IMG/VR virus record: IMGVR_UViG_3300029892_000010 | Span: 1 to 32,800 of that record | Reading direction: 5' to 3' (one strand) | DNA length: 32,800 bases | Source of the DNA: a virus | In this document: piece by piece, positions 5,152-26,629 of the stretch | Layout of the letters: every line of letters begins with the position of its first letter | Numbering within the stretch: the stretch's first letter is position 1 | Notes under the pieces: generated by a model | Told to the model about the DNA's origin: nothing | The model's input: only the letters and a program-made list of their open reading frames with translations | Databases searched by the model: none | Made by a program: the position numbers and the translations under genes

Positions 5152-5973
5152 TTACCTTCTCCTTCGACGCGGCAGCGGCAGGTATCCACCACCTGTCAAG
5201 CCCGGCACGTTCGGCTCGTACTCCTTCAGCGCAGCACCGCCGAGCACCATGCCGCCCACACCGACGACCGGCTTCTCATGCAGCCGAGTGGCGGCACCGC
5301 CGAGCACCATGCCGCCCACACCGACGACCGGCTTCTCATGCAGCCGAGTGGCGGCACCGCCGAGCACCATGCCGCCCACACCGACGACCGGCTTCTCATG
5401 CAGCCGAGTGGCGGCACCGCCCAGGATCAACCCGCCGCTGCCGACGTGCGAGTACTCGTTCGGAGTGGTGCCACCCTCGGTGTAATAAACCTTGAGGGCG
5501 AGGTATTCGAGGCTCGCATCCTCGGTGTAGTTGTCGCCCTGGTAGGCGATGCGAATCTTGAAATTCGCGTCTGAGAACTCGGAGGCATCCCACGACCGTC
5601 CCCAAGTATCGGCAGAACCGCCAAAGGTCCAGGTCTGTTTACTGCCAGGAGTCCCGCCGAAGTCTCCGCTTGCCGGGACTCGTTTTGCCGAGGTCCAGCT
5701 CGTGCCGCCGTCGTAAGACAGGTAAAGATTCAGATACCATCCGGCATCCCCGAATGCGTCGTAACCCCGGATCGTTCCTTCAATGCCGTCAATCGTGGCG
5801 CCTGCGGGAACGCCGAACGTGAAGTTTTTCCAGCGGCTCGTGCTTATGCCGTTGTTGCCTGTGTTTCCTGTGGTGGCACTGGTGTCGTCGGCGTGAAGGT
5901 TATTGCGGTTTACCCACTCCGTTGACCCCTCGTCCTCGTTGGCTGTCGGAGCCTTGAAGCCCGTGTCGGCCAT
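5152..5973 (-). CDS. Tail protein with three exact 20-residue repeats
   Basis: 273 aa, ATG at 5973 overlapping the upstream stop as TAATG, so translation is coupled to the 40-aa gene before it. Residues 1-170 form a beta-sandwich-like domain (GVPAGATIDGIEGTIRGYD, WYLNLYLSYDGG, LEYLALKVYY), typical of phage and environmental structural proteins. From about residue 180 the unit GGMVLGGAATRLHEKPVVGV is repeated in tandem and is encoded by identical 60-base DNA units (5234-5421). The C-terminus is Pro/Arg-rich (LPLPRRRRR). The GGxxxGGAA motif suggests a repeated surface loop or beta-spiral. The exact role is unknown; tail decoration is inferred. Confidence 0.75.
   Translation of the reverse strand: MADTGFKAPTANEDEGSTEWVNRNNLHADDTSATTGNTGNNGISTSRWKNFTFGVPAGATIDGIEGTIRGYDAFGDAGWYLNLYLSYDGGTSWTSAKRVPASGDFGGTPGSKQTWTFGGSADTWGRSWDASEFSDANFKIRIAYQGDNYTEDASLEYLALKVYYTEGGTTPNEYSHVGSGGLILGGAATRLHEKPVVGVGGMVLGGAATRLHEKPVVGVGGMVLGGAATRLHEKPVVGVGGMVLGGAALKEYEPNVPGLTGGGYLPLPRRRRR
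5234..5421. repeat. 60-bp exact tandem repeat, about 3.1 copies
   Basis: The sequence is perfectly periodic at 60 bases from 5234 to 5421. Units 5281-5340 and 5341-5400 are identical, including all third codon positions, and partial units flank them. Each unit encodes 20 residues, so copy number can change without a frameshift. Exact identity at silent sites indicates recent duplication or ongoing gene conversion or slippage. Confidence 0.95.
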
Positions 5974-12959: not shown

Positions 12960-13136
12960 TCAAATCCTCACTTCACGGCGCTCTCTGCGGCGCCACCCAT
13001 AGCGCGGCTCGTTCACGGCGCGCTCGCGTACACGATTTTTGAACAGGCATTCTGTGTGAACGCCAATCACGTACTCGTGCGAATGCCGCGGCAGCTCGCG
13101 GGCGCACATCCGGCAGAATTTAGAGTCGGCGTCCAC
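12960..13136 (-). CDS. 58-aa zinc-finger-like protein between terminase and portal
   Basis: GTG at 13136 overlaps the terminase 3' end; stop TGA at 12960-12962, three bases before the portal ATG. The product starts VDADSKFCRMCARELPRHSH, contains CxxC at residues 8-11, H18/H20, and H27 with C30 (GVHTECLF), then a strongly basic C-terminus (WRRRERREVR). This pattern fits a single treble-clef or HNH-like zinc finger with a basic DNA-contacting tail, but no HNH catalytic motif is complete. Coupling to terminase suggests a packaging accessory role; that is inference. Confidence 0.65.
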   Translation of the reverse strand: MDADSKFCRMCARELPRHSHEYVIGVHTECLFKNRVRERAVNEPRYGWRRRERREVRI

Positions 13137-14595
13137 CGCGTATGATCCTCAGTCCGGGGCGCGAATAGCTCGGCGCCTGGATCAGCACCGACTGCCGGTG
13201 CGGGGTGCGCACAAGCGCCCGACCTTCGCCCGCGCCGAGCAGCAGATAACCGCCGGCCTCGCAGACGTGGCTGTAGATCGAGTGCTTGTCCGGCTTGTCC
13301 TCATAGCGCTCATCGCCGGCCACCTTCATGCGCCGGTAGTGGTAGCCGCCCGACAATCCCTTGCGGAAGTACCGAGCCTTCGGCGACACCTGGAAGCCGG
13401 GCTTGCCGTCGATCATGCGCAGCATCGGCGCCGCGAGCGCCTCACGCCGCAGCACAAAATCGTTCGATTGCGCCGGCAGCGCTGGGATGCCCATCGCCCG
13501 CAAGATCGAAAAACAGGTATCATCCTCGCGCTGCGAGTGCGGCGCCCGCGTATCACCGGCCGGGTCGCCGTAGATGCGGAACTCGTACCCGTAAAAATCA
13601 GTGCCCATCTTGGCCTTGAGCAGCTCCCCGAAGCGGTAGATGCCCATGTCCTCGGTCACCAACTCGTCAAGGAAAGCCCACTGACCGTTGGCGTACCGCT
13701 GCGCGAACACCGCCGCGGGCGTAAGCCCGAAGTCAAGCCCGACCCAGACGGTGAGTCCCTTAATCGGCTCGATCACCGACGGCGCGCAGTGGGTGGCGTC
13801 GATATACTCTGGCACCACCGGCTTGCCGTCGCGCACGAAGCCATACTGCGCGGCGTAGTACACCCGGACGTGGTCGAGCGGCTTGCCGTAGGAACGGGTG
13901 AGGTAGTACTGCTCTTCGAGGTTCTCGATGTTCTCCGCGAGCGGGTTCTCGACGAACGTGCCATCCGCTTGCTCGATCAGTCCGCCCGGCTGACGGAAGT
14001 AGGCGAACTTCTTGGGGTACTTCTCGTGCAGCCGATTTTCCTCGAACTCCTTGTAGAACCAATGGTCCTGATCGGGCGGGTTCGAGTCCGCCAGGATGCC
14101 GCGCCACGTCGCGCCGCCGTCGGCACGCGGCGGGTAGCGTCCAACGCGGTCCTCAAGCGCTTCCCAGATGCCGCGCGGTATCTCTCGCGCCTCGTTCAGC
14201 CACGCTCCGGTAACCTCGAGCGAAAGCACCTTCTTCACGTCTTCGACGGTGTCGAGCGCGCGGAACAGCACGTCGAACTCAGCGTCACCGACGCGACCCT
14301 TGAAGATCATGTCCTGCCAGTTCATCGTGCCGACCTGGGACATCCAGTACATCCAGGTAGCGACGGTGGTGTCCTTCAGCTCCCGGTAGGTGTTGCGCAC
14401 CGCCAGCCAGCGGCTGCGCCGGGTGCCATCCCGGCCGGGGCGCTGCGCCAGCGCATGACCGACGGTGTCGAAGCAGCACGCGGTCGACTTGCCGGAGCCG
14501 ACCGGACCAATGACGATGCGCACCATCGCGTCGCTGGCGTGGAACTTCGCCAGCGTCGGGCCGGGGCAGTGATACTCAAGAATCGCGTGCGACAT
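13120..14595 (-). CDS. terL: Terminase large subunit
   Basis: 491 aa from the ATG at 14595, which overlaps the upstream stop as TGATG. It is the ATP-driven DNA packaging motor and headful or site nuclease. Walker A is GPVGSGKST with K36; a Walker B-like segment is KVLSLEVTGAWLNEAREIP (hydrophobic strand then NEA, a slight variant of DE). The coupling region has ILADSNPP. The C-terminal nuclease has the first acidic strand VWVGLDFGLTPAAVF and a second at FRIYGDPAGD. Length is normal for the family. The small terminase candidate is directly upstream. Confidence 0.92.
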   Translation of the reverse strand: MSHAILEYHCPGPTLAKFHASDAMVRIVIGPVGSGKSTACCFDTVGHALAQRPGRDGTRRSRWLAVRNTYRELKDTTVATWMYWMSQVGTMNWQDMIFKGRVGDAEFDVLFRALDTVEDVKKVLSLEVTGAWLNEAREIPRGIWEALEDRVGRYPPRADGGATWRGILADSNPPDQDHWFYKEFEENRLHEKYPKKFAYFRQPGGLIEQADGTFVENPLAENIENLEEQYYLTRSYGKPLDHVRVYYAAQYGFVRDGKPVVPEYIDATHCAPSVIEPIKGLTVWVGLDFGLTPAAVFAQRYANGQWAFLDELVTEDMGIYRFGELLKAKMGTDFYGYEFRIYGDPAGDTRAPHSQREDDTCFSILRAMGIPALPAQSNDFVLRREALAAPMLRMIDGKPGFQVSPKARYFRKGLSGGYHYRRMKVAGDERYEDKPDKHSIYSHVCEAGGYLLLGAGEGRALVRTPHRQSVLIQAPSYSRPGLRIIRGGRRL

Positions 14596-16966: not shown

Positions 16967-17242
16967 TCAAAAAACGATTCGGTAAATCACCGAGTACTGG
17001 TCGACCAAGTCCTCCGGGCGGTCGTTGAACGGCTGCCCCTCGGTGAAACTCGAGTGGTGATCGAACTCGAGCACCCACCCGCTGCCGGTGCGCGGCTCGT
17101 AGCGATAGCGAATCACCGACTGCGGGTTCTTACCCTCGTCGATGTGCTTGTCGTACCCCGCGCCCAGCTCGAGGACGTGCTGGTGCGTCGCGCAACCAGA
17201 AAACGCGACGACCGCAGCCAAAATGAGTCCGGCACGGATCAT
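16967..17242 (-). CDS. Phage lipoprotein
   Basis: 91 aa, ATG at 17242 overlapping the protease stop as ATGA. The N-terminus MIRAGLILAAVVAFSGC is a lipoprotein signal peptide with lipobox AFSGC (C17 after cleavage). The mature part is beta-rich with aromatic strands (VLELGAGYDKHI, VIRYRYEPRTGSGWVLEFDH, QYSVIYRIVF), which suits a small periplasm-facing outer membrane lipoprotein. Phage lipoproteins of this size can block superinfection or assist lysis; which applies cannot be read from the sequence. It is coupled to the protease gene. Confidence 0.8.
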   Translation of the reverse strand: MIRAGLILAAVVAFSGCATHQHVLELGAGYDKHIDEGKNPQSVIRYRYEPRTGSGWVLEFDHHSSFTEGQPFNDRPEDLVDQYSVIYRIVF

Positions 17243-17991
17243 GTCGGCGCCTCGAGGAAACGACGAACGATGTCCGCCGGCACGGCGAACCCGATGTGAT
17301 AAACCGGCACCATCGAGAACCCGACAGCACTGGCACGCAGTCGCACGTTGATCCCGGCAACGCAGCGACGATGGGCGTCGAACAGCGGCCCGCCACTCGA
17401 GCCGAACACGATCGACGCGGAGTGCTGCAAGACCTCGACGGTCTGGTCGTCCTCGATCGGCAGCACCAGCCGGGCGTTGCCGACGATCCCCGCCGTCGGG
17501 AACGGGTCCATCCCTGCGGCAGCGCCGACCGACACCACGGCGTCGAACGGGTGCAGAGGCAGTTCGCACAACGAGGCGACGGGAACGCGGTAGCGGACGG
17601 GGAGCGAAACCTTCAGCAGCGCCAGATCGAGCTTGTCGTCTCGACGGATGACTTCGGCAGGGAGGGAACGCAGGTTGAGCGCCACGAAGTGGACGAGGAG
17701 CTTGTCGTCCCCGGCGAGGACGTGTGCCGCAGTGAGAAGCAGCGCCGCACCGGGCGCCGCGGTGATGACGACCGCGGAGCCGTGGCCGCCGTCACTACGG
17801 GCGACGGTCGCCGTCGCTTCGATCGTCGCGGCGTCGGTGTCAACCCGCAGAGGCGCCGCAGCGTTGACACCGCGAGCTAAGTACCCGGTGCAAAAGCCCA
17901 GGGCGCCAAAAATCAGCGCCAGGGAAAGAAACAGCAGCCGAAACAGGTTCACCTTGGCCGGCTCCATTGGCGATTCGAGAGACAGACTCAT
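17239..17991 (-). CDS. Membrane-anchored trypsin-like serine protease
   Basis: 250 aa from the ATG at 17991; starts at GTG 18009 or ATG 17967 are also possible, and none has a strong ribosome site. One N-terminal membrane span (LFRLLFLSLALIFGALGFCTGYL) is followed by a chymotrypsin-fold protease. Catalytic triad candidates are H90 in LLTAAHVLAG, D122 in KLDLALL and S199 in FGSSGGPLF, all in proper context. The anchor places the protease outside the cytoplasm. It is the first gene of the leftward block and couples to the lipoprotein. Roles in host envelope modification, lysis or exclusion are inference. Confidence 0.82.
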   Translation of the reverse strand: MSLSLESPMEPAKVNLFRLLFLSLALIFGALGFCTGYLARGVNAAAPLRVDTDAATIEATATVARSDGGHGSAVVITAAPGAALLLTAAHVLAGDDKLLVHFVALNLRSLPAEVIRRDDKLDLALLKVSLPVRYRVPVASLCELPLHPFDAVVSVGAAAGMDPFPTAGIVGNARLVLPIEDDQTVEVLQHSASIVFGSSGGPLFDAHRRCVAGINVRLRASAVGFSMVPVYHIGFAVPADIVRRFLEAPT

Positions 17992-18925: not shown

Positions 18926-19123
18926 CTACATCAGCTCCTCGCCAAACGATTCCACCCAAGTCAGGAGATCGCGCGCAGGCGTATCGTCGGAGACCTCGAA
19001 CGTCGTGCCGGCGTCACCCATTGCCTTGACTTGCACCCGCGGATTCGGAACGCGCCCGCGAAAGCCCAGCGCGTACACCCGCGAGCCGTCCTCGAAGTCG
19101 ATCACGATGGGCACAACCTTCAC
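18926..19123 (-). CDS. Small hypothetical protein upstream of SprT-like gene
   Basis: 65 aa from a GTG at 19123 with GAGAGGGAG upstream. MKVVPIVIDFEDGSRVYALG, then RVPNPRVQVKAMGDAGTTFEV, followed by a short helix (ARDLLTWVESFGEEL). Small beta-rich protein with no cysteine motif. It is the first gene behind the leftward promoter at 19314-19342 and is coupled closely to the metalloprotease gene. Confidence 0.7.
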   Translation of the reverse strand: MKVVPIVIDFEDGSRVYALGFRGRVPNPRVQVKAMGDAGTTFEVSDDTPARDLLTWVESFGEELM

Positions 19124-19263
19124 GCACTCCCTCTCCCCGAAAACCTAAGTCGCGGCGCACCCAGGCTAGGAGGCGCAGGGTTTGGGCAACCCCTAGATGG
19201 ACAGGCGGCCTGGGGCGCCGCGAGGGATGGATAGTACCACAGATGGACACTCCCGGTCTCCTG

Positions 19264-19275
19264 ACAGATAGACAG
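19264..19275 (+). promoter_or_regulatory. ACAGATAGACAG motif in the divergent region
   Basis: ACAGATAGACAG follows CTG, giving CTGACA like a -35 element, but there is no -10 at usual distance. It belongs to the set of ACAGATAGAC motifs found in control regions of this phage and may be a regulator site acting on the leftward promoter 40-70 bases away. Confidence 0.4.
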
Positions 19276-19288
19276 GTAGCAGGTTTCA

Positions 19289-19477
19289 GGTTGCAACCAG
19301 TTTGCAACTCCCTTATATATATTTTTCTTTTCTTTCTATCAAAAACATGTCCAAGTAATAGGATTTGGGCTCGCAACCCGCAACCTCTGCAACCGTACGA
19401 GCCTTGCCGCACTGTTCTTCGGCTGCGGTACAACGCCCATCGGACCTTGAACAACGATACGGCGATAAACAGCAACC
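19289..19477. repeat. Cluster of GCAACC repeats (iteron-like)
   Basis: GCAACC occurs at 19293-19298, 19373-19378, 19380-19385, 19389-19394 and 19472-19477, and a GCAACT variant at 19304-19309. The first copy is part of the perfect palindrome GGTTGCAACC (19289-19298). The cluster surrounds an A+T-rich tract (19312-19345) in the gap between the two divergent gene blocks. Such repeats plus A+T-rich DNA fit an origin or a multi-site operator. I see no gene in 19124-19619. Confidence 0.55.
19314..19342 (-). promoter_or_regulatory. Leftward sigma70-type promoter
   Basis: On the minus strand TTGATA (19342-19337) is followed after 17 bases of A-rich DNA by TATATA (19319-19314). Both boxes and spacing fit a sigma70 promoter reading toward the gene at 19123. 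The GCAACC repeats flank and follow it, so it may be regulated. Confidence 0.6.
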
Positions 19478-19498
19478 TCGATACAGCGATTCAAAGAT

Positions 19499-19521
19499 TT
19501 GATAACTCTTTGATCTATCAA
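19499..19521. promoter_or_regulatory. Dyad TTGATA-N11-TATCAA, possible operator
   Basis: TTGATA (19499-19504) and TATCAA (19516-19521) form an inverted repeat that lies 18 bases upstream of the -35 box of the rightward promoter. A second small dyad, CAAAGA/TCTTTG, overlaps it. Spacing suits a dimeric repressor or activator; the binding protein is unknown. Confidence 0.4.
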
Positions 19522-19538
19522 TCTTCGATTACCGCCGC

Positions 19539-19569
19539 TTGACAGTGAGATAGATAGTTGCCGTAGAAT
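19539..19569 (+). promoter_or_regulatory. Rightward early promoter
   Basis: TTGACA (19539-19544) is followed by a spacer containing GAGATAGATAG and a -10-like TAGAAT (19564-19569). The spacing is 19 bases, a bit long; GTAGAA gives 18. It would start transcription about 45 bases before the first rightward gene. The spacer repeats the GATAGATAG theme seen at 26974. Confidence 0.6.
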
Positions 19570-19619
19570 GGCGCCCTTGGCAGTTGGAGGTTTGGCACTT
19601 CAAGCCTGGAGGAGGCGCC

Positions 19620-19856
19620 ATGGTTATCACGATCACCCTGTCCGATGCACCCAACGGGTGCGCCTGCGGGTGCGGCAGCAGGCTGCACCTTGACGTTCAG
19701 GCCCACCGCGCAGACGAGGAGCCCGATCCCGATCCCGATCCCGAGCCGTCGGAGGCCGGGGAGGCAGCGGAGCTGATGCTGGACGCGCTGCTGAAGCACT
19801 ACGACATCCGCCGGGAGGAGCCGCTTGCGAGCATCTCCCATCCCACCGTCAACTGA
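19620..19856 (+). CDS. Small acidic early protein
   Basis: 78 aa; ATG at 19620 with GGAGGAGG five bases upstream, so a longer TTG-started frame is rejected. Sequence MVITITLSDAPNGCACGCGS has a CACGC cluster, and the middle is an Asp-Pro run (EEPDPDPDPEP), followed by a helix (AAELMLDALLKHYDIRREE). First gene after the rightward promoter. The cysteine cluster could bind metal; acidic early proteins sometimes act as DNA mimics or inhibitors, but nothing specific can be assigned. Confidence 0.7.
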   Translation: MVITITLSDAPNGCACGCGSRLHLDVQAHRADEEPDPDPDPEPSEAGEAAELMLDALLKHYDIRREEPLASISHPTVN

Positions 19857-19872
19857 CCGACCGGAGAACGCC

Positions 19873-20253
19873 ATGCACCAGCCAGTGATGTCGCTCGTCC
19901 ACGAACAGAGTGCCGTCGAGCACAACGCCAAGCTCCTCGCCGATGTCCTTCGGTGGTGGAAGCTGGGCCACAAGTACCGGGCGCTCGGGACGACGTGGCA
20001 GATGATCGCCAACTTTGTGCGCGGCGCTGCCGCATACGCGGACGCGTTCGGTCACGAGGACGTGCTCGACGATCTCCAGACGCTGTTCCAGGTCGCGCTC
20101 GAGCATCACTTCGAGATCATGGAGCACGGCATACCAATGGCGGAGCACTTGAAGGCGCGTCAGTTGTTCGCCCAAGAGTACGCCAAGGAGTTCGGGCTCA
20201 AGGGCGACAAGCGTCCGTCGGTCTTGGTCGTCGCGCCCGCGGGGCACGCGTAG
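19873..20253 (+). CDS. Hypothetical helical early protein
   Basis: 126 aa, ATG at 19873 with GGAG nearby. The product is all-helical by pattern (NAKLLADVLRWWKLGHKYRALG, TWQMIANFVRGAAAYADAFGH, DVLDDLQTLFQVALEHHFEI). No motif recognised. It lies in the early operon between two other small genes. Confidence 0.7.
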   Translation: MHQPVMSLVHEQSAVEHNAKLLADVLRWWKLGHKYRALGTTWQMIANFVRGAAAYADAFGHEDVLDDLQTLFQVALEHHFEIMEHGIPMAEHLKARQLFAQEYAKEFGLKGDKRPSVLVVAPAGHA

Positions 20254-20262
20254 AAGGTCGTC

Positions 20263-20643
20263 ATGTGTGTCAAGTTCTTTGGCGATTGGATGGAGGTGAA
20301 GGAGCTGGTGACCGCCTACAAGGTGGTGCGCCGCGTGCCCGGCCTCGAGCACACCTACCGGTCCAAGACGTTACCGCACTCACGGTCCCCGCAACCTGGG
20401 TCGCCCAACTCTGGGCGTAAGCTGAAGTACCGGCTGCACGAGGAGACCCGCTCCGGTGCACCGGGCATCTACTGCTATGCCGTGAGGCCGACGCTTCCGA
20501 AAGACCAGTATCACGAGCGCTCGCTGCTCGAGGTGGAGATTCCCGCTGGCGCGAAGATTCGGTTTGGCCGAGTGCGCTCCAGGCAGGTGACGGTGAACGC
20601 CACGCGCGTGATCCCCAGGAGGGTGCTGCTCGGCATTTTATGA
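20263..20643 (+). CDS. Hypothetical early protein
   Basis: 126 aa, ATG at 20263 with AAGG upstream. KELVTAYKVVRRV and EHTYRSKTLPHSR precede GAPGIYCYAVRPTL, then SLLEVEIPAGAKIRFGR and RVRSRQVTVNATRVIPRR. The order YK-x-YR-x-GIYCYA-x-LLEVEIP resembles small phage proteins of unknown function that share a compact beta domain. Its stop overlaps the next start as ATGA. Confidence 0.65.
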   Translation: MCVKFFGDWMEVKELVTAYKVVRRVPGLEHTYRSKTLPHSRSPQPGSPNSGRKLKYRLHEETRSGAPGIYCYAVRPTLPKDQYHERSLLEVEIPAGAKIRFGRVRSRQVTVNATRVIPRRVLLGIL

Positions 20644-20801
20644 GCTGGCGTCTGATCCTGGTCGCCGCTGTCGTTGCCACGATCACGGCAGCGGCTGTTC
20701 ATCGTGCCCGCGCGCACGACGACTGCGGGGAGCCATACTCGGGCGCGGAACTTCTGCCGATCACTGGAGATAAGCCGCGTTGCGAAGCAACGTCGGCTTG
20801 A
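20640..20801 (+). CDS. 53-aa secreted or membrane-anchored peptide, 3' end inside an attC-like site
   Basis: ATG at 20640 overlaps the upstream stop (ATGA); stop TGA at 20799-20801. The start MSWRLILVAAVVATITAAAV is a signal peptide or anchor; the short rest has two cysteines (C29 and C48) able to form a disulfide if exported. Its last 15 codons lie within the attC-like hairpin at 20756-20815, so the C-terminus is encoded by recombination-site DNA. The original 3' end may have been replaced when the cassette inserted. Function unknown. Confidence 0.6.
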   Translation: MSWRLILVAAVVATITAAAVHRARAHDDCGEPYSGAELLPITGDKPRCEATSA

Positions 20802-20815
20802 GCGACTTGTTATGC
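20756..20815 (+). other. attC-like recombination site, left boundary of gene cassette
   Basis: The right core is GTTATGC (20809-20815), close to the integron consensus GTTRRRY. Nine bases to its left is CGGCTT (20794-20799), which pairs with AAGCCG (20772-20777); the inner stem CGTTGC/GCAACG closes on GAA. T20793 is left unpaired, like the extrahelical bases of attC. The left core at the mirrored nine-base distance is GCCGATC (20756-20762), a degenerate match (5 of 7 to GCCTAAC). No T-tract follows, so it is not a terminator. Confidence 0.65.
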
Positions 20816-21300
20816 GGCATTGGTGGCTGACGAAGGACGGAGACCGTGATTGCCTGGAACTCTACGAACGGCACTACAGCGCCTACCGGTACAGGGACGG
20901 ACGTGAGCGCAAATTGTTCGTCGGGCCGGGCGAGAAAGTCGTTCTGCGCACCGAATCAGGAGATGCCATGTTCGTGTGGCGGAAGTTCATCGACGACAGC
21001 GGCCAGCGCGGGATCAACTGCGCAGTTTTCAGAAACGAAGGCCAGATCCGCAGCAGCGACCTCATACGACAAGCGGACGAAATTGCTGATTGCCTCTGGC
21101 CTGATCGCCGGCATTACACCTACGTCAATCCGAAAGCGATCCGCTCAACAAACCCTGGATATTGCTTTATCGCAGCAGGATGGAACCGATGCGGAAGAAC
21201 GAAAGGCGGACTGATCGTGCTGGAGCGCGTCATGCCGCCTAACGCCTGAATTCAGGTGACGGCAAAAGCGCAGCTTTTGACGGTCACCTGCAATGACGGG
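20810..21300 (+). mobile_element. Integron-type gene cassette
   Basis: The 491 bases between the predicted cut points (G/TT at 20809-20810 and 21300-21301) carry one gene in the attC orientation. The ATG is two bases after the left cut, and the stop lies inside the right attC. This compact promoterless layout is that of integron gene cassettes. No integron integrase gene or attI site is seen in the window, so insertion must have been carried out elsewhere, for example by a host integron. Confidence 0.65.
20812..21249 (+). CDS. Cassette-borne hypothetical protein
   Basis: 145 aa from the ATG at 20812, directly after the left recombination point; the open frame upstream is not coding-like. Stop TGA at 21247-21249 lies within the right attC site, as in typical cassettes. 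Features: MRHWWLTKDGDRDCLELYER, ERKLFVGPGEKVVLRTESGD, AMFVWRKFIDDSGQRGINCAV, RNEGQ, a Tyr-rich segment (RRHYTYVNPKAI), and GYCFIAAGWNRCGRTKGGL. The many Trp and paired Cys suggest a compact alpha/beta domain. I do not recognise the function; cassette genes often carry defence or adaptive roles. Ribosome binding may depend on readthrough from the upstream gene. Confidence 0.7.
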   Translation: MRHWWLTKDGDRDCLELYERHYSAYRYRDGRERKLFVGPGEKVVLRTESGDAMFVWRKFIDDSGQRGINCAVFRNEGQIRSSDLIRQADEIADCLWPDRRHYTYVNPKAIRSTNPGYCFIAAGWNRCGRTKGGLIVLERVMPPNA

Positions 21301-21306
21301 TTAGCC
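21237..21306 (+). other. attC-like recombination site, right boundary of gene cassette
   Basis: Left core GCCTAAC (21237-21243) matches RYYYAAC exactly. Nine bases on, CAGGTGAC (21253-21260) pairs with GTCACCTG (21283-21290), which is nine bases before the right core GTTAGCC (21300-21306). The inner stem CAAAAGC/GCTTTTG closes on GCA, and G21282 can be extrahelical. Length (70 bases), symmetric nine-base spacers and both cores fit the attC folded-hairpin plan. The right core departs from GTTRRRY at one base. Confidence 0.75.
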
Positions 21307-21348
21307 GGCTACCCGCGATAAAGCCCGGCGCATTCAAGGATTTGCGAA

Positions 21349-21540
21349 ATGACCAAGAAAGTAAGAATCGAGAACGCCGACACCGCCAACTACAAGGTGG
21401 TTGTTCAGGTTTGGGACAAGGGGCACGACGGCCAGCCGGACGTGATGGCCTTCGAGAAGGTGCTGCACAACCCCTGCGACATCACTGGCGACGACGTGTA
21501 TCTGACCAGCACCCGCTACGTGGTGGTCAAGGAGGCGTAA
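21349..21540 (+). CDS. Small hypothetical early protein
   Basis: 63 aa, ATG at 21349 with AAGGA upstream. MTKKVRIENADTANYKVVVQ, WDKGHDGQPDVMAFEKVL, then TSTRYVVVKEA: a small beta-sandwich-like phage protein of a type often found near phage early or replication genes. First gene after the right attC. Function unknown. Confidence 0.7.
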   Translation: MTKKVRIENADTANYKVVVQVWDKGHDGQPDVMAFEKVLHNPCDITGDDVYLTSTRYVVVKEA

Positions 21541-21542
21541 TC

Positions 21543-21758
21543 GTGACGACGGGCGCGCCGAGGATTTGCCGCTCTTGCGGCCACGAACTTGCCGAAGCCA
21601 AGCACGGCCGCTACTGCAAGAACGGCTGCCAGACCTACACGGCGCAGCCCGTCGGCTCGGAATACCTGACCGCCAAGGGACTAGCGCGAGACGAGGACGG
21701 TCGAGTTTGGGAAACCGGCGGAGTTGGCGGAATACGGCGCTTGCTAAGAGCAAGTTGA
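21543..21758 (+). CDS. Small zinc-ribbon protein (GTG start)
   Basis: 71 aa from a GTG at 21543, two bases after the previous stop, with GGAGG in the 3' end of that gene. A longer frame upstream runs through the neighbour in another frame and is rejected. CRSC (residues 9-12) and CKNGC pairs make a zinc knuckle; the rest (EYLTAKGLARDEDGRVWE) is charged. Possible DNA- or RNA-binding adaptor; role unknown. Confidence 0.65.
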   Translation: MTTGAPRICRSCGHELAEAKHGRYCKNGCQTYTAQPVGSEYLTAKGLARDEDGRVWETGGVGGIRRLLRAS

Positions 21759-21792
21759 TTTTCATACTGCGATAGGACCAATTAATCAAATG

Positions 21793-21895
21793 TCCGGAAC
21801 AACTCGGGCGGCAGGCTTAGCTGAGTGGTCCAAGCCCCGCAACGATAAAGCGGTGACGCGGGTTCGATTCCCGCAGCGCTGCCGCTCGAGCCGGA
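21793..21895 (+). ncRNA. tRNA-like structured RNA with extended acceptor stem
   Basis: A cloverleaf can be drawn with every stem perfect or nearly so: outer helix 21803-21814 with 21879-21890 (12 pairs, one G-T); D-like arm GCTT/AAGC (21815-21818, 21832-21835) with TAGCTGAGTGG-type loop; anticodon-like arm CCGC/GCGG (21837-21840, 21850-21853) with loop AACGATAAA, GAT in the middle; and a canonical T-arm GCGGG-TTCGATT-CCCGC (21858-21874). Unlike a true tRNA it lacks the two-base 8-9 linker, has 12 acceptor pairs, a four-base AGCG link after the T-arm and no CCA end. A further TCCGG/CCGGA helix flanks it. A degenerate tRNA or a tRNA mimic are the options. Confidence 0.5.
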
Positions 21896-21914
21896 CCCCA
21901 AGAACATCGAAGCG

Positions 21915-24056
21915 TTGAAAATCCTTCTATTCGATTCGGTAAAGTCGAAAGCGCCGAGTCGATCCGTTGATCTCACCTGGGAGCAGCTCGCAACGCTGCT
22001 TACGTCCCAGCGCGTCACCGTCACGAAGAAAGAGGCGGTGAAGCTCATCGGCCCGTATTCTCTCGTCGAGGGCACGACGCGCGGAAGCGACAACGTCACC
22101 GAGGTCCACGCGCTCTTCGTCGACATCGACGACGACGGCACCACTCCGAACGACGCCACGAAGCTGCTCAATCAGCGAAGAGTGGCGCACGTCGTTTACT
22201 CCACCCACTCGAGCACCCGCGAGCGACCGAAGTACCGGGTGGCGATCCCGCTGAGCGAGCCCGTGCCGGGGTCGCGCTGGCGGGAGTTCTTCGAGGCCGC
22301 CTGCCAGCTCTACAAGCTGCCGTACGATCCCAAGACGGTCGACCCGTCTCGCATTTATTACCTGCCGAGCAGCCCGCCCGACTGCGACAGCGTGTTCGCC
22401 TGGAAGGCCGAGGGTGCCCCGCTCGACGTGACGACGATACAACGATCCGACGCCACGGCAATGCCGCGATATGCCGATGCGTTCGATCCGTTCATGGACG
22501 ACGCCGAGCCGTTCCGGCTGCCGCCGAAGATCGACAAGGGTGGCCGCAACGACACACTGCATCGGTACGCGTGGCACCTGCTGGGCAAGAACGAGGAGAT
22601 TGCCTACGCCGATCTGCTTGCCAAGGTGATGGAGGCGAACGTCAAGCGGTGCGTGCCGCCGCTGCCGGAAGGCGAGATTCGCACCTTGGTCGACTCCGCG
22701 GTGTCACATTTCGAGCGCCGAAAACGACAGGAGGAGATGCAGCCGCCCGTCGCGCCTGACGATCGCAGCGCAGAGGGCTTCGAGAACCCGCCGCAGTATC
22801 CGCCGCAGGTGGAGAGCTATATGTACACCCTCAACGAAACGTACGCCTACATCATGGCGCAATCGGCGGTCTGGAAATTTCCGGTGCGTACGTTCGCGTC
22901 GCCGGACAAGTGCAGACACGACCAGTCGAATATGCTCTTCAAGATCACCAACCGTCGCAACGCCCAGGAGTTCAACGCGTTCGATTTGTGGATGAAGTGG
23001 CGCTACCGCCGGCAGTACGCCGCGATCGAGTATGCACCGGGGCAGCCGGCGACGACGGCGGGCGGGGCGCTCAACTTGTGGACCGGCTGGCCGCAGCAAC
23101 CTCGAGCGGGCGACGTAACGCTCTGGCACCGGCTGCTCGATCATGTGTTCGGCAGCAACCGGGAGATGCGTCGCTGGTTCGAGTGCTGGGCGGCGTGGCC
23201 GATCCAGCATCCAGGCGCGAAGCTGCTCACCGCGTGCATCTTCTGGAGTGCCGTCGAGGGCTCGGGCAAGTCCAGCCTGGGGCTGCTGATCGGGTCGCTC
23301 TACGGTCAGCACAGCCGGGTGATCCACGGCAACGAACTCTCGCGTCCGTTCAACGCTTGGGCGAAGGACGCCAGCTTCGTGCTCGGTGAAGAAGTGCGCA
23401 GCGAGGACCAGCGTATCGACGCTGACCGACTCAAGCATCTCATCACCGGGGAGACGATTCCGATCGAAATGAAATTTGTCGACCGCTTCGAGCTGCCCAA
23501 CCGAATGAACTTCATGTTCAACTCGAACCACCCTAATGCGTTCTTCCTAACGGACTACAGTCGGCGGTACTTCATCTGGGAAGTTATTGGCGGGAAGCTG
23601 CCGCTCGAGCTGGGCGAGGCACTTGAGCGCTGGCGCAAGAGCGAGGAAGGGCGCTCCGCGCTGATGCACTACCTGCTCAACGTCGACACCACCGACTGGA
23701 GCCCGAATGCCGACGCACCGAGCACGGAGAGCAAGGAGGACATGGTCGAGGCGGGACGCACGGAGCTGGAACGATGGCTGTTGGATACACTCGACGGGGT
23801 CGAGATCGTCCGCGTCGAGGATTTGAAGCTCATGTACGAGGCGGAAATGGGCAACGCCAAGACGACCACGACGGCAATCTTTCACGTTCTGCGCCGGCTG
23901 TTCGGCAAGATGACCGCCCGACCGATAAAAGTGGGCGGTCGGGTGCTACGACTGCGAGCCATTCGCAACGCCGGGCAATGGAATAAGAGAGACAACCAAG
24001 ACTGGATTTCCGCTTACAGGGCGTGGACAGAATCGCGTTTACAAAGAAGTAGTTGA
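21915..24056 (+). CDS. Primase-helicase (RepB-like primase with SF3/D5-type helicase)
   Basis: 713 aa from a TTG at 21915; no ATG or GTG start fits and an in-frame stop lies at 21846-21848, so translation initiation is weak. The N-terminal 300 residues carry the archaeo-eukaryotic-like primase pattern with ALFVDIDDDG, VVYSTHSSTRERPKYRVAIPLSE and the DPSRIYYLPSSP segment. The helicase has Walker A VEGSGKSSLG (K452), Walker B-like SFVLGEEV and a motif C-like NRMNFMFNSNHP sensor asparagine. Proteins of this plan prime and unwind phage DNA. It sits directly downstream of the tRNA-like RNA. Confidence 0.85.
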   Translation: MKILLFDSVKSKAPSRSVDLTWEQLATLLTSQRVTVTKKEAVKLIGPYSLVEGTTRGSDNVTEVHALFVDIDDDGTTPNDATKLLNQRRVAHVVYSTHSSTRERPKYRVAIPLSEPVPGSRWREFFEAACQLYKLPYDPKTVDPSRIYYLPSSPPDCDSVFAWKAEGAPLDVTTIQRSDATAMPRYADAFDPFMDDAEPFRLPPKIDKGGRNDTLHRYAWHLLGKNEEIAYADLLAKVMEANVKRCVPPLPEGEIRTLVDSAVSHFERRKRQEEMQPPVAPDDRSAEGFENPPQYPPQVESYMYTLNETYAYIMAQSAVWKFPVRTFASPDKCRHDQSNMLFKITNRRNAQEFNAFDLWMKWRYRRQYAAIEYAPGQPATTAGGALNLWTGWPQQPRAGDVTLWHRLLDHVFGSNREMRRWFECWAAWPIQHPGAKLLTACIFWSAVEGSGKSSLGLLIGSLYGQHSRVIHGNELSRPFNAWAKDASFVLGEEVRSEDQRIDADRLKHLITGETIPIEMKFVDRFELPNRMNFMFNSNHPNAFFLTDYSRRYFIWEVIGGKLPLELGEALERWRKSEEGRSALMHYLLNVDTTDWSPNADAPSTESKEDMVEAGRTELERWLLDTLDGVEIVRVEDLKLMYEAEMGNAKTTTTAIFHVLRRLFGKMTARPIKVGGRVLRLRAIRNAGQWNKRDNQDWISAYRAWTESRLQRSS

Positions 24057-25244: not shown

Positions 25245-25424
25245 ATGGTCCGTTGGGTGCGCATCAGCCGCTTCTGTGAGCTGACGGGCTACACGAAGGA
25301 CGCCGTCTACACGAAGATACAGCGCGGCCACTGGCTCGAGGGGGTTCTCTGGAAGCGCGCCCCCGATGGCAATATTCTGATGAACTTGGAGGCGTACGAG
25401 AAATGGGTCGAACAGGCGGCATGA
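25245..25424 (+). CDS. xis: Excisionase (Xis)-like protein
   Basis: 59 aa, ATG at 25245. The sequence MVRWVRISRFCELTGYTKDA, VYTKIQRGHWLEGVLWKRAP and DGNILMNLEAYEKWVEQ follows the pattern of the phage excisionase family (WVxLxxxxExTGYTxxAVxxKIxxGxWxEGxxWxKAPDGxxxxNLxxYxxWV), a winged-helix recombination directionality factor. Xis bends attachment-site DNA and turns the integrase toward excision. Its stop overlaps the integrase ATG (ATGA), so both are made together. High confidence from motif and context. Confidence 0.85.
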   Translation: MVRWVRISRFCELTGYTKDAVYTKIQRGHWLEGVLWKRAPDGNILMNLEAYEKWVEQAA

Positions 25425-26629
25425 AGCTCTACACCGGCCCGTTGCCGGAGGGCGTCGAGATCAGGGGCGGCAGTCTGCGCATGACGTTCTACTATCGCGG
25501 AGTGCGCTGCCGTGAGACGGTGCGCATCTCGCCGACGGTTGCGAACGTGCGGCACGTCCAGCGCTGGCGCGAGACGATCCTCTTCGAGATCGCAACCAAC
25601 CAGTTCGACTACGCCAAACACTTTCCGGATTCCGAGCAGGCCGGGCTCTTTCGTCGCGGCGCCACGACCACCGTCGCCCAGGCGCTCGAGGCGTGGCTGG
25701 CGTCCCAGCAGAAGCTGTCGGCGCCGTCGACCCTGGACGACTATCGTAACACCGTCCACAACCACCTGATCCCTGCGCTCGGCAAGCTGAAGCTGTCCGA
25801 GCTGTCGAAGTCGGCGATCAAGGAATGGATCGGCGGTCTCACCTGCTCGGCGAAGCGGGTGAACAACCTGCTGATTCCGCTACGGGGGATGCTGACGGAC
25901 GCGTTCGAGGACGGCGCGATCGACCGCAACCCGATGGCGACGATCCGCAACCTGAAGCGGGACACGTTCCCGGAGCCGGACCCGCTCACGCCGGACGAGG
26001 TCAAGGCGATCCTGAGTGCCTGCCGGCAGGAGCAGCACCGCACCCTCTGGCAGTTCGCATTCTCGACTGGACTGCGCTCCTCCGAGCTGATCGCGCTCGA
26101 GTGGGGCGACGTGGATTGGCACCGCGGAGTGATCCGGGTGCGCCGCTCGGTCGTCCGCGGGCGCGAGCGCGAGGGCACCAAGACCGAGTCGGGGGTACGC
26201 GAAGTCAAGCTGCTTCCGCCGGCCCTGGAGGCGCTACAAGCGCAGAAGGCACACACCCTCTTACTGGGCGGCCGGGTGTTTTACAACCCGAACACCGGCA
26301 AGCCTTGGGTCAGCTCGAAGCAGCTCGAGAAGGTCTGGGGGCGGATCATCCAGCGCGCCAAGGTGCGCTATCGGAATCCCTACCAGACCCGGCACACCCA
26401 CGCCTCTACTCTGCTCACGGCCGGCGAAAACCCCGCCTGGGTGGCCGCGCAGATGGGGCACAAGGACTGGGGCATGATCCGCAAGGTCTACGCCCGGTGG
26501 ATTCCCGATCTGAGTCCAGAAGCCGGGCAAAAGGCGGCGCAGCTCGTGGGGCGCAGTTGGGGCGATGGGAGCCGATTTCAGCCGACTCCAGCCGACCCAT
26601 ATCTCACTCAAGAGATAGGTGCCCTCTAA
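25421..26629 (+). CDS. int: Tyrosine-family phage integrase
   Basis: 402 aa from the ATG at 25421, overlapping xis; an upstream start at 25403 would lie inside xis. The N-terminus is an arm-type binding domain (LYTGPLPEGVEIRGGSLRMTF, DUF3596-like), then a core-binding domain (TVAQALEAWLASQQKLS). Catalytic residues: R219 in STGLRSSELIALEW, the lysine in GTKTESGVREVKLL, R324 in NPYQTRHTHAST, the GHKDW histidine and Y357 in RKVYARWIPD. It inserts phage DNA at the attachment site just downstream. Confidence 0.92.
   Translation: MKLYTGPLPEGVEIRGGSLRMTFYYRGVRCRETVRISPTVANVRHVQRWRETILFEIATNQFDYAKHFPDSEQAGLFRRGATTTVAQALEAWLASQQKLSAPSTLDDYRNTVHNHLIPALGKLKLSELSKSAIKEWIGGLTCSAKRVNNLLIPLRGMLTDAFEDGAIDRNPMATIRNLKRDTFPEPDPLTPDEVKAILSACRQEQHRTLWQFAFSTGLRSSELIALEWGDVDWHRGVIRVRRSVVRGREREGTKTESGVREVKLLPPALEALQAQKAHTLLLGGRVFYNPNTGKPWVSSKQLEKVWGRIIQRAKVRYRNPYQTRHTHASTLLTAGENPAWVAAQMGHKDWGMIRKVYARWIPDLSPEAGQKAAQLVGRSWGDGSRFQPTPADPYLTQEIGAL

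Follow-up and report, generated by a model that had tools for sequence, protein, structure and literature searches.

The origin of integron cassettes is an open question. One locus in a viral record from IMG/VR (32,800 bases; hereafter the window, meaning the whole stretch of DNA analyzed) gives it a concrete form: a single gene (20812–21249, plus strand) lies between two hairpins about 0.5 kb apart, and an earlier reading of this DNA (the original prediction) took the arrangement for an integron-type gene cassette inside the early region of a temperate phage. We asked whether the hairpins are attC sites, which way the cassette points, and where its gene came from.

The Phage Record and Its attC Sites

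The window encodes a portal, a major head protein, a primase, a family-A DNA polymerase, an excisionase (25245–25424; PHROG), a phage tyrosine integrase with a P4-type arm domain (25403–26629, plus strand; Pfam) and a terminase, a set of genes that indicates a temperate tailed phage. The terminase large subunit (13120–14595, minus strand; PHROG) has relatives in named phages and by itself marks the window as tailed phage. No integron integrase was found in the window: the best match to TIGR02249 reached 23.2 bits against a cut-off of 265, and the phage tyrosine integrase falls below that cut-off. The locus lacks the intI gene of a complete integron and may be a CALIN (two attC sites 0.5 kb apart, no intI above cut-off), though one site scores below 20 bits and the record is possibly incomplete. 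Elsewhere in the window, gene 5152–5973 contains a 60-bp repeat (window 5231–5436; 14848–15143 in contig L057) whose copies align out of register between these two near-identical copies of the phage, perhaps reflecting variable copy number. A protein encoded at 17239–17967 (minus strand) matches a PHROG protease family and has a trypsin-like look, and a tRNA was called just before the primase (21811–21880) by Rfam (36.8 bits), not by ARAGORN.

A covariance model with two extrahelical bases, whose sole input was 41 chromosomal attC sites (taken from 40 regions adjoining integron integrases in Pseudomonadota genomes), matched the window at E ≤ 10 exactly twice, both times on the minus strand and on either side of the gene. 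The right site (21237–21306; 40.6 bits, E 7e-7) carries R'' GGCTAAC and R' GTTAGGC and is by itself far beyond chance. The left site (20756–20815; 17.7 bits, E 0.064), the cassette's own attC, carries R'' GCATAAC and a degenerate R', GATCGGC, and is marginal when taken alone; it shares its strand with the right site and has a homolog in another phage, the terminal attC of a related cassette. The R''/L''–L'/R' hairpin plan with extrahelical bases is present at both, strong on the right and weak on the left. Both R' boxes lie where cleavage is predicted (minus strand, 21243–21237 and 20762–20756), and the G|TTRRRY consensus is intact in the right box, not in the left. The left R' is the point at which the cassette meets phage DNA, and a degenerate box is to be expected where such a unit joins non-att DNA. 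The weakness of this site and the state of its R' suggest that present-day excision may be poor.

Folding agreed with this picture. The bottom-strand fold of the right site, as drawn in the original prediction, gave −24.9 kcal/mol (z −6.1), a value that none of 200 shuffles equaled, and that of the left site gave −13.2 kcal/mol (z −2.2), equaled by 4 of 200; across folds, z ranged from −4.3 to −6.1 on the right and was −3.0 for the left site on the plus strand. Much of the original prediction held at this level. Its site limits were correct (on the plus strand, GCCGATC from 20756 and GTTATGC from 20809 for the left site, GCCTAAC from 21237 and GTTAGCC up to 21306 for the right), as were the symmetric nine-base spacers (9/9 at both sites). 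It had looked for support to same-strand attC matches, which were obtained, and had named the lack of any attC model hit as grounds for giving it up, whereas an independent model recovers both sites.

Polarity of the Cassette

The direction of the cassette relative to its gene was judged from sequence and structure. A position matrix for attC orientation, tested with whole loci left out, assigned the right orientation to 162 of 163 chromosomal sites; it scored the right site at 31.0 on the minus strand vs. 3.2 on the plus strand, and the left site at 18.2 vs. −3.1. In the plus-strand fold of the left site, an unpaired T occupies the position seen when a chromosomal attC is folded as its bottom strand. 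Together with the strand of the covariance model matches, these results argue that the coding strand of the gene corresponds to the bottom strand of the attC sites, so that gene 20812–21249 appears to be antisense to the attC polarity of its cassette, the reverse of the usual direction (attC minus, gene plus). With cut positions deduced from the R' boxes, the predicted unit spans 481 bp on the minus strand (20762–21242), from the G| cut of the right attC to that of the left, with the gene inverted inside it; the cassette start corresponds to the R'' of its own attC, the two ends of the unit (GTTATGCGGCAT / ATGCCGCCTAAC) being complementary at 11 of 12 bases. The right core "starting GTT" that had been described as a plus-strand core is thus R'' read backwards on sites that lie on the minus strand. 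Likewise, the ATG at 20812 does sit inside GTTATG, just after what had been called the left cut, but that cut is not canonical. Cassette direction annotated from core motifs alone can therefore be wrong.

In chromosomal arrays, the longer open reading frame between neighboring attC sites ran with attC polarity 94 times and against it 7 times, with 8 ambiguous cases; inverted cassettes thus make up at most 7 of 101, and several of the 7 are without any convincing gene. With the same tools, genes in published phage arrays ran in the normal direction in 19 of 19 cases in M16-3, 9 of 11 in Vibrio phage p16 and 2 of 2 in TJE1 (2/32 inverted in all three together). Inverted cassette genes numbered one in the window, four in a short P2-like phage fragment (L023) and two in a Mu-like phage (L022), both of which are unrelated to the window phage. 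The difference from chromosomal arrays gave Fisher values of 1e-7 by genes and 7e-4 by phages, where genes of the same array are not independent and one shared gene had led to all three phages. Past its second attC, L022 has a segment with normally oriented reading frames, one of them ending at the attC, so inversion is not universal in that phage. The inverted layout is rare in the bacterial and phage arrays checked.

A signature-pattern search for inverted arrays returned L023 again and three further stretches (L140, L141 and L143) with no detectable attC, and our model, tuned to Pseudomonadota-type sites, found no attC in the remainder of H101, P12002L and L144. The array of L023 (988–2584) and that of Shewanella phage M16-3 (MZ568829, 14664–17002) occupy the same place, with the baseplate V gene on one side and the tail completion gene on the other, and with inverted polarity in L023 and normal polarity in M16-3; two different P2-like phages with arrays at one place suggest a shared insertion locus.

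The Cassette Gene and Its Family

The gene starts in the left R'' box, stops in the right attC and encodes a 145-aa protein of family phrog_24928 (E 3e-27). Its structure model (pLDDT 92.7) matched ElaA and other GNATs in the PDB (best ElaA 5z6n, TM 0.63, probability 1.00), and from this model we are confident in predicting a GNAT fold, a likeness by structure at an identity to solved GNATs of only about 9–19%. The acetyl-CoA motif (Q/R)xxGx(G/A) is not clear in the family consensus, which has FRNE…SS at the expected place. Homology to Mu Mom found no significant support (hhalign probability 0.5%); the one visible likeness, a shared HYS triplet, is no more than a lead. PADLOC found no defense family. 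A GNAT-type acyltransferase could benefit the phage, and counter-defense through acylation or DNA modification would be our guess.

By codon usage, the gene is the least phage-like of 51 (rank 1/51, based on our own gene calls). It lies in a plus-strand early region between a small upstream reading frame (20640–20801, plus strand, 53 aa), whose 3' end now enters the left attC, and a native phage gene downstream (21349–21540, plus strand, 63 aa), whose codon usage is the most phage-like of the 51; a family search matched neither neighbor. Without the cassette the upstream frame would stop after 42 aa, and in-silico deletion of 20762–21242 gives it a clean stop. A sigma-70 scan of 19100–22000 called no promoter, and neither attC hairpin was called as a terminator.

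Relatives of phrog_24928 were found in 49 viral stretches of IMG/VR by search and in 456 with an alignment query. By comparison, a limited 8-residue pattern search of 84,980 genomes (genome_contigs) gave 2 matches to the family, and 1 of 399 Pseudomonadota genomes held a member, this being the genome chosen as a center because it carries one. The family is therefore mainly viral and almost absent from the bacterial genomes sampled. Homologs in chromosomal cassettes, which the original prediction had named as support, were not found in any chromosomal integron of those genomes, and the region had no blastn match in INPHARED. A 69%-identical homolog of the protein has conjugation genes as neighbors on a Rhizobium plasmid (CP021372, 4001–4417), where the annotated gene is on the opposite strand.

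Almost all relatives examined are without attC, which was present only in the window, L022 and L023. The homolog in L022 has the same inverted arrangement, and that in L023 is one of its four inverted cassettes, contrary to the proposed refutation that homologs would never have flanking attC sites. The tree is compatible, weakly (69% of bootstraps), with the cassette forms having arisen once.

Edges of the Cassette

Alignment of the window with L023 runs on the minus strand from the gene through the attC to …CTCC(A/G)GTG, where it ends; past the G, the DNA differs (ATCGGC in the window, TCAGCA in L023). Judged from this alignment, the left boundary of the cassette falls on the predicted G| cut, with unrelated phage DNA beyond. 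Alignments to two plain homologs (L003 and L007) span the reading frame only. Another cassette gene of L023, P0002, has a plain, attC-free homolog in a 91-kb viral contig (L225, 5015–5375), and these two align from ATG to TGA. As had been predicted, the stop (TGA, 21247–21249) lies inside the right attC; there and at 1487–1489 in L023 the final codons and stop (AAC GCC TGA) come from the attC, which by supplying them edits the C-terminus of the gene.

Relatives lacking exactly the insert, named by the original prediction as further support, were sought through the primase, terminase, DNA polymerase and flanking genes, and none was found in the sampled databases. Contig L057, the one candidate to emerge, was set aside, being 99.9% identical over 15 kb and hence the same phage, and ending at window position 20268, before the cassette.

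Origin of the Cassette

These observations are best accommodated if 20762–21242 is an integron-type cassette made from a phage gene, inserted by IntI acting in trans and with its gene inverted, a reading that we consider probable. Codon usage, homology confined to the reading frame, the viral family, the left edge at the cut base and the layout in L022 and L023 all count for it; the failure to find an empty-site relative or call a promoter, the weak left attC and the normal-looking segment of L022 count against it. A common viral accessory gene, normally without attC, would have been built into a cassette, and phages rather than integrons may be where such cassettes were assembled or selected. 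The cassette would then have been inserted, most likely by a host integron integrase, at a non-att (attG-like) G| site in the early operon of the temperate window phage or of an ancestor. As a single clean insertion should leave one hairpin and two flank the gene, the place must be taken to have had an attC or a cassette already. A gene inverted relative to attC polarity would not depend on the integron Pc promoter and would have to be read by phage transcription.

A competing account keeps the block but removes the integrase from this lineage: phage mosaicism, in which homologous or illegitimate recombination with an array-bearing phage brought it in. Phages do swap such modules, Qi et al. 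(PMC9892861) suggested this route, and the two hairpins with a degenerate R' resemble a fragment of a longer array. A random cross-over, however, would not favor the cut base, and it is on this predicted base that the left edge falls and that homology with L023 ends despite unrelated flanks; we regard mosaicism as rather unlikely. A normal cassette captured from a chromosomal integron, with plus-strand attC polarity and its ATG right after the left cut, appears improbable. The plus strand does read RYYYAAC…GTTRRRY at the core boxes, the gene fits tightly between them, and palindromic sites can be used on either strand at a lower rate (as for the top strands of phage attC sites, PMC9892861), but the strand of the covariance model matches, the matrix scores with their control accuracy, the arm that bears the unpaired base and the failure to find a homolog in chromosomal integrons all speak against it.

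Least credible, to the point of being very nearly dismissed, is that there is no cassette and that two unrelated hairpins, terminators or attenuators, look like attC sites by chance. Phage operons hold many hairpins and the left one is weak alone, but the E value of the right site comes from an independent model, the only two matches in the window flank one gene of foreign codon usage, neither was called as a terminator, and the homologs in L022 and L023 are bounded by attC. The original description of an integron-type cassette in a phage early region thus survives through its attC matches, the homologs in phage arrays and the foreign codons, and needs correction in its polarity.

Relation to Known Systems and Significance

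Gene cassettes in phages, held by the original prediction to be rarely reported, are not unreported: integron parts were found in 21 of 10,705 phages, and 5 of 6 phage attC sites tested recombined with IntI1 (Qi et al., 2023; PMC9892861). That survey used a limit of 20 bits with a model different from ours, and such cases as the window, where one site is below 20 bits, could be missed. Like the phage-borne CALINs of TJE1 and M16-3 (PMC9892861), the window has attC-bounded genes in a tailed phage. It shares with Tetrasphaera phage TJE1 the lack of an integron integrase, while Shewanella phage M16-3 holds one in a separate integron. The genes of M16-3 and TJE1 and most of those of p16 follow attC polarity, whereas the cassettes described here in the window, L022 and L023 oppose it. 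Compared with chromosomal Pseudomonadota cassettes, the window has the same short attC architecture (60–70 bases, extrahelical bases, GTTRRRY) but differs in having no integrase, no attI, an apparently inverted gene and a gene family scarcely represented in bacterial genomes. Cassettes can enter genomes at non-classical attG sites, according to Loot et al. (2024) as cited in PMC12901181. The locus works in a like manner, an attC-ended unit meeting non-att DNA at a G| (G|ATCGGC in the window, G|TCAGCA in L023), although insertion in the window would have to be deduced, no empty target site having been seen.

The window adds to the known phage-borne attC arrays a variant with an inverted cassette and a gene family of phage origin. 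One viral gene is seen in two forms, plain in dozens of phages and cassette-borne in three, with edges that can be read to the base. That these cassettes are inverted speaks for their being kept for phage expression, not integron expression. We suggest, tentatively, that phages might be a nursery for distinct inverted cassettes, in which phage accessory genes acquire attC sites and pass from phage to phage as cassettes, free of the Pc constraint. If so, the pairs of plain and cassette forms (the window, L022 and L023 vs. L003 and L007, and P0002 vs. its homolog in L225) would record the birth of cassettes.
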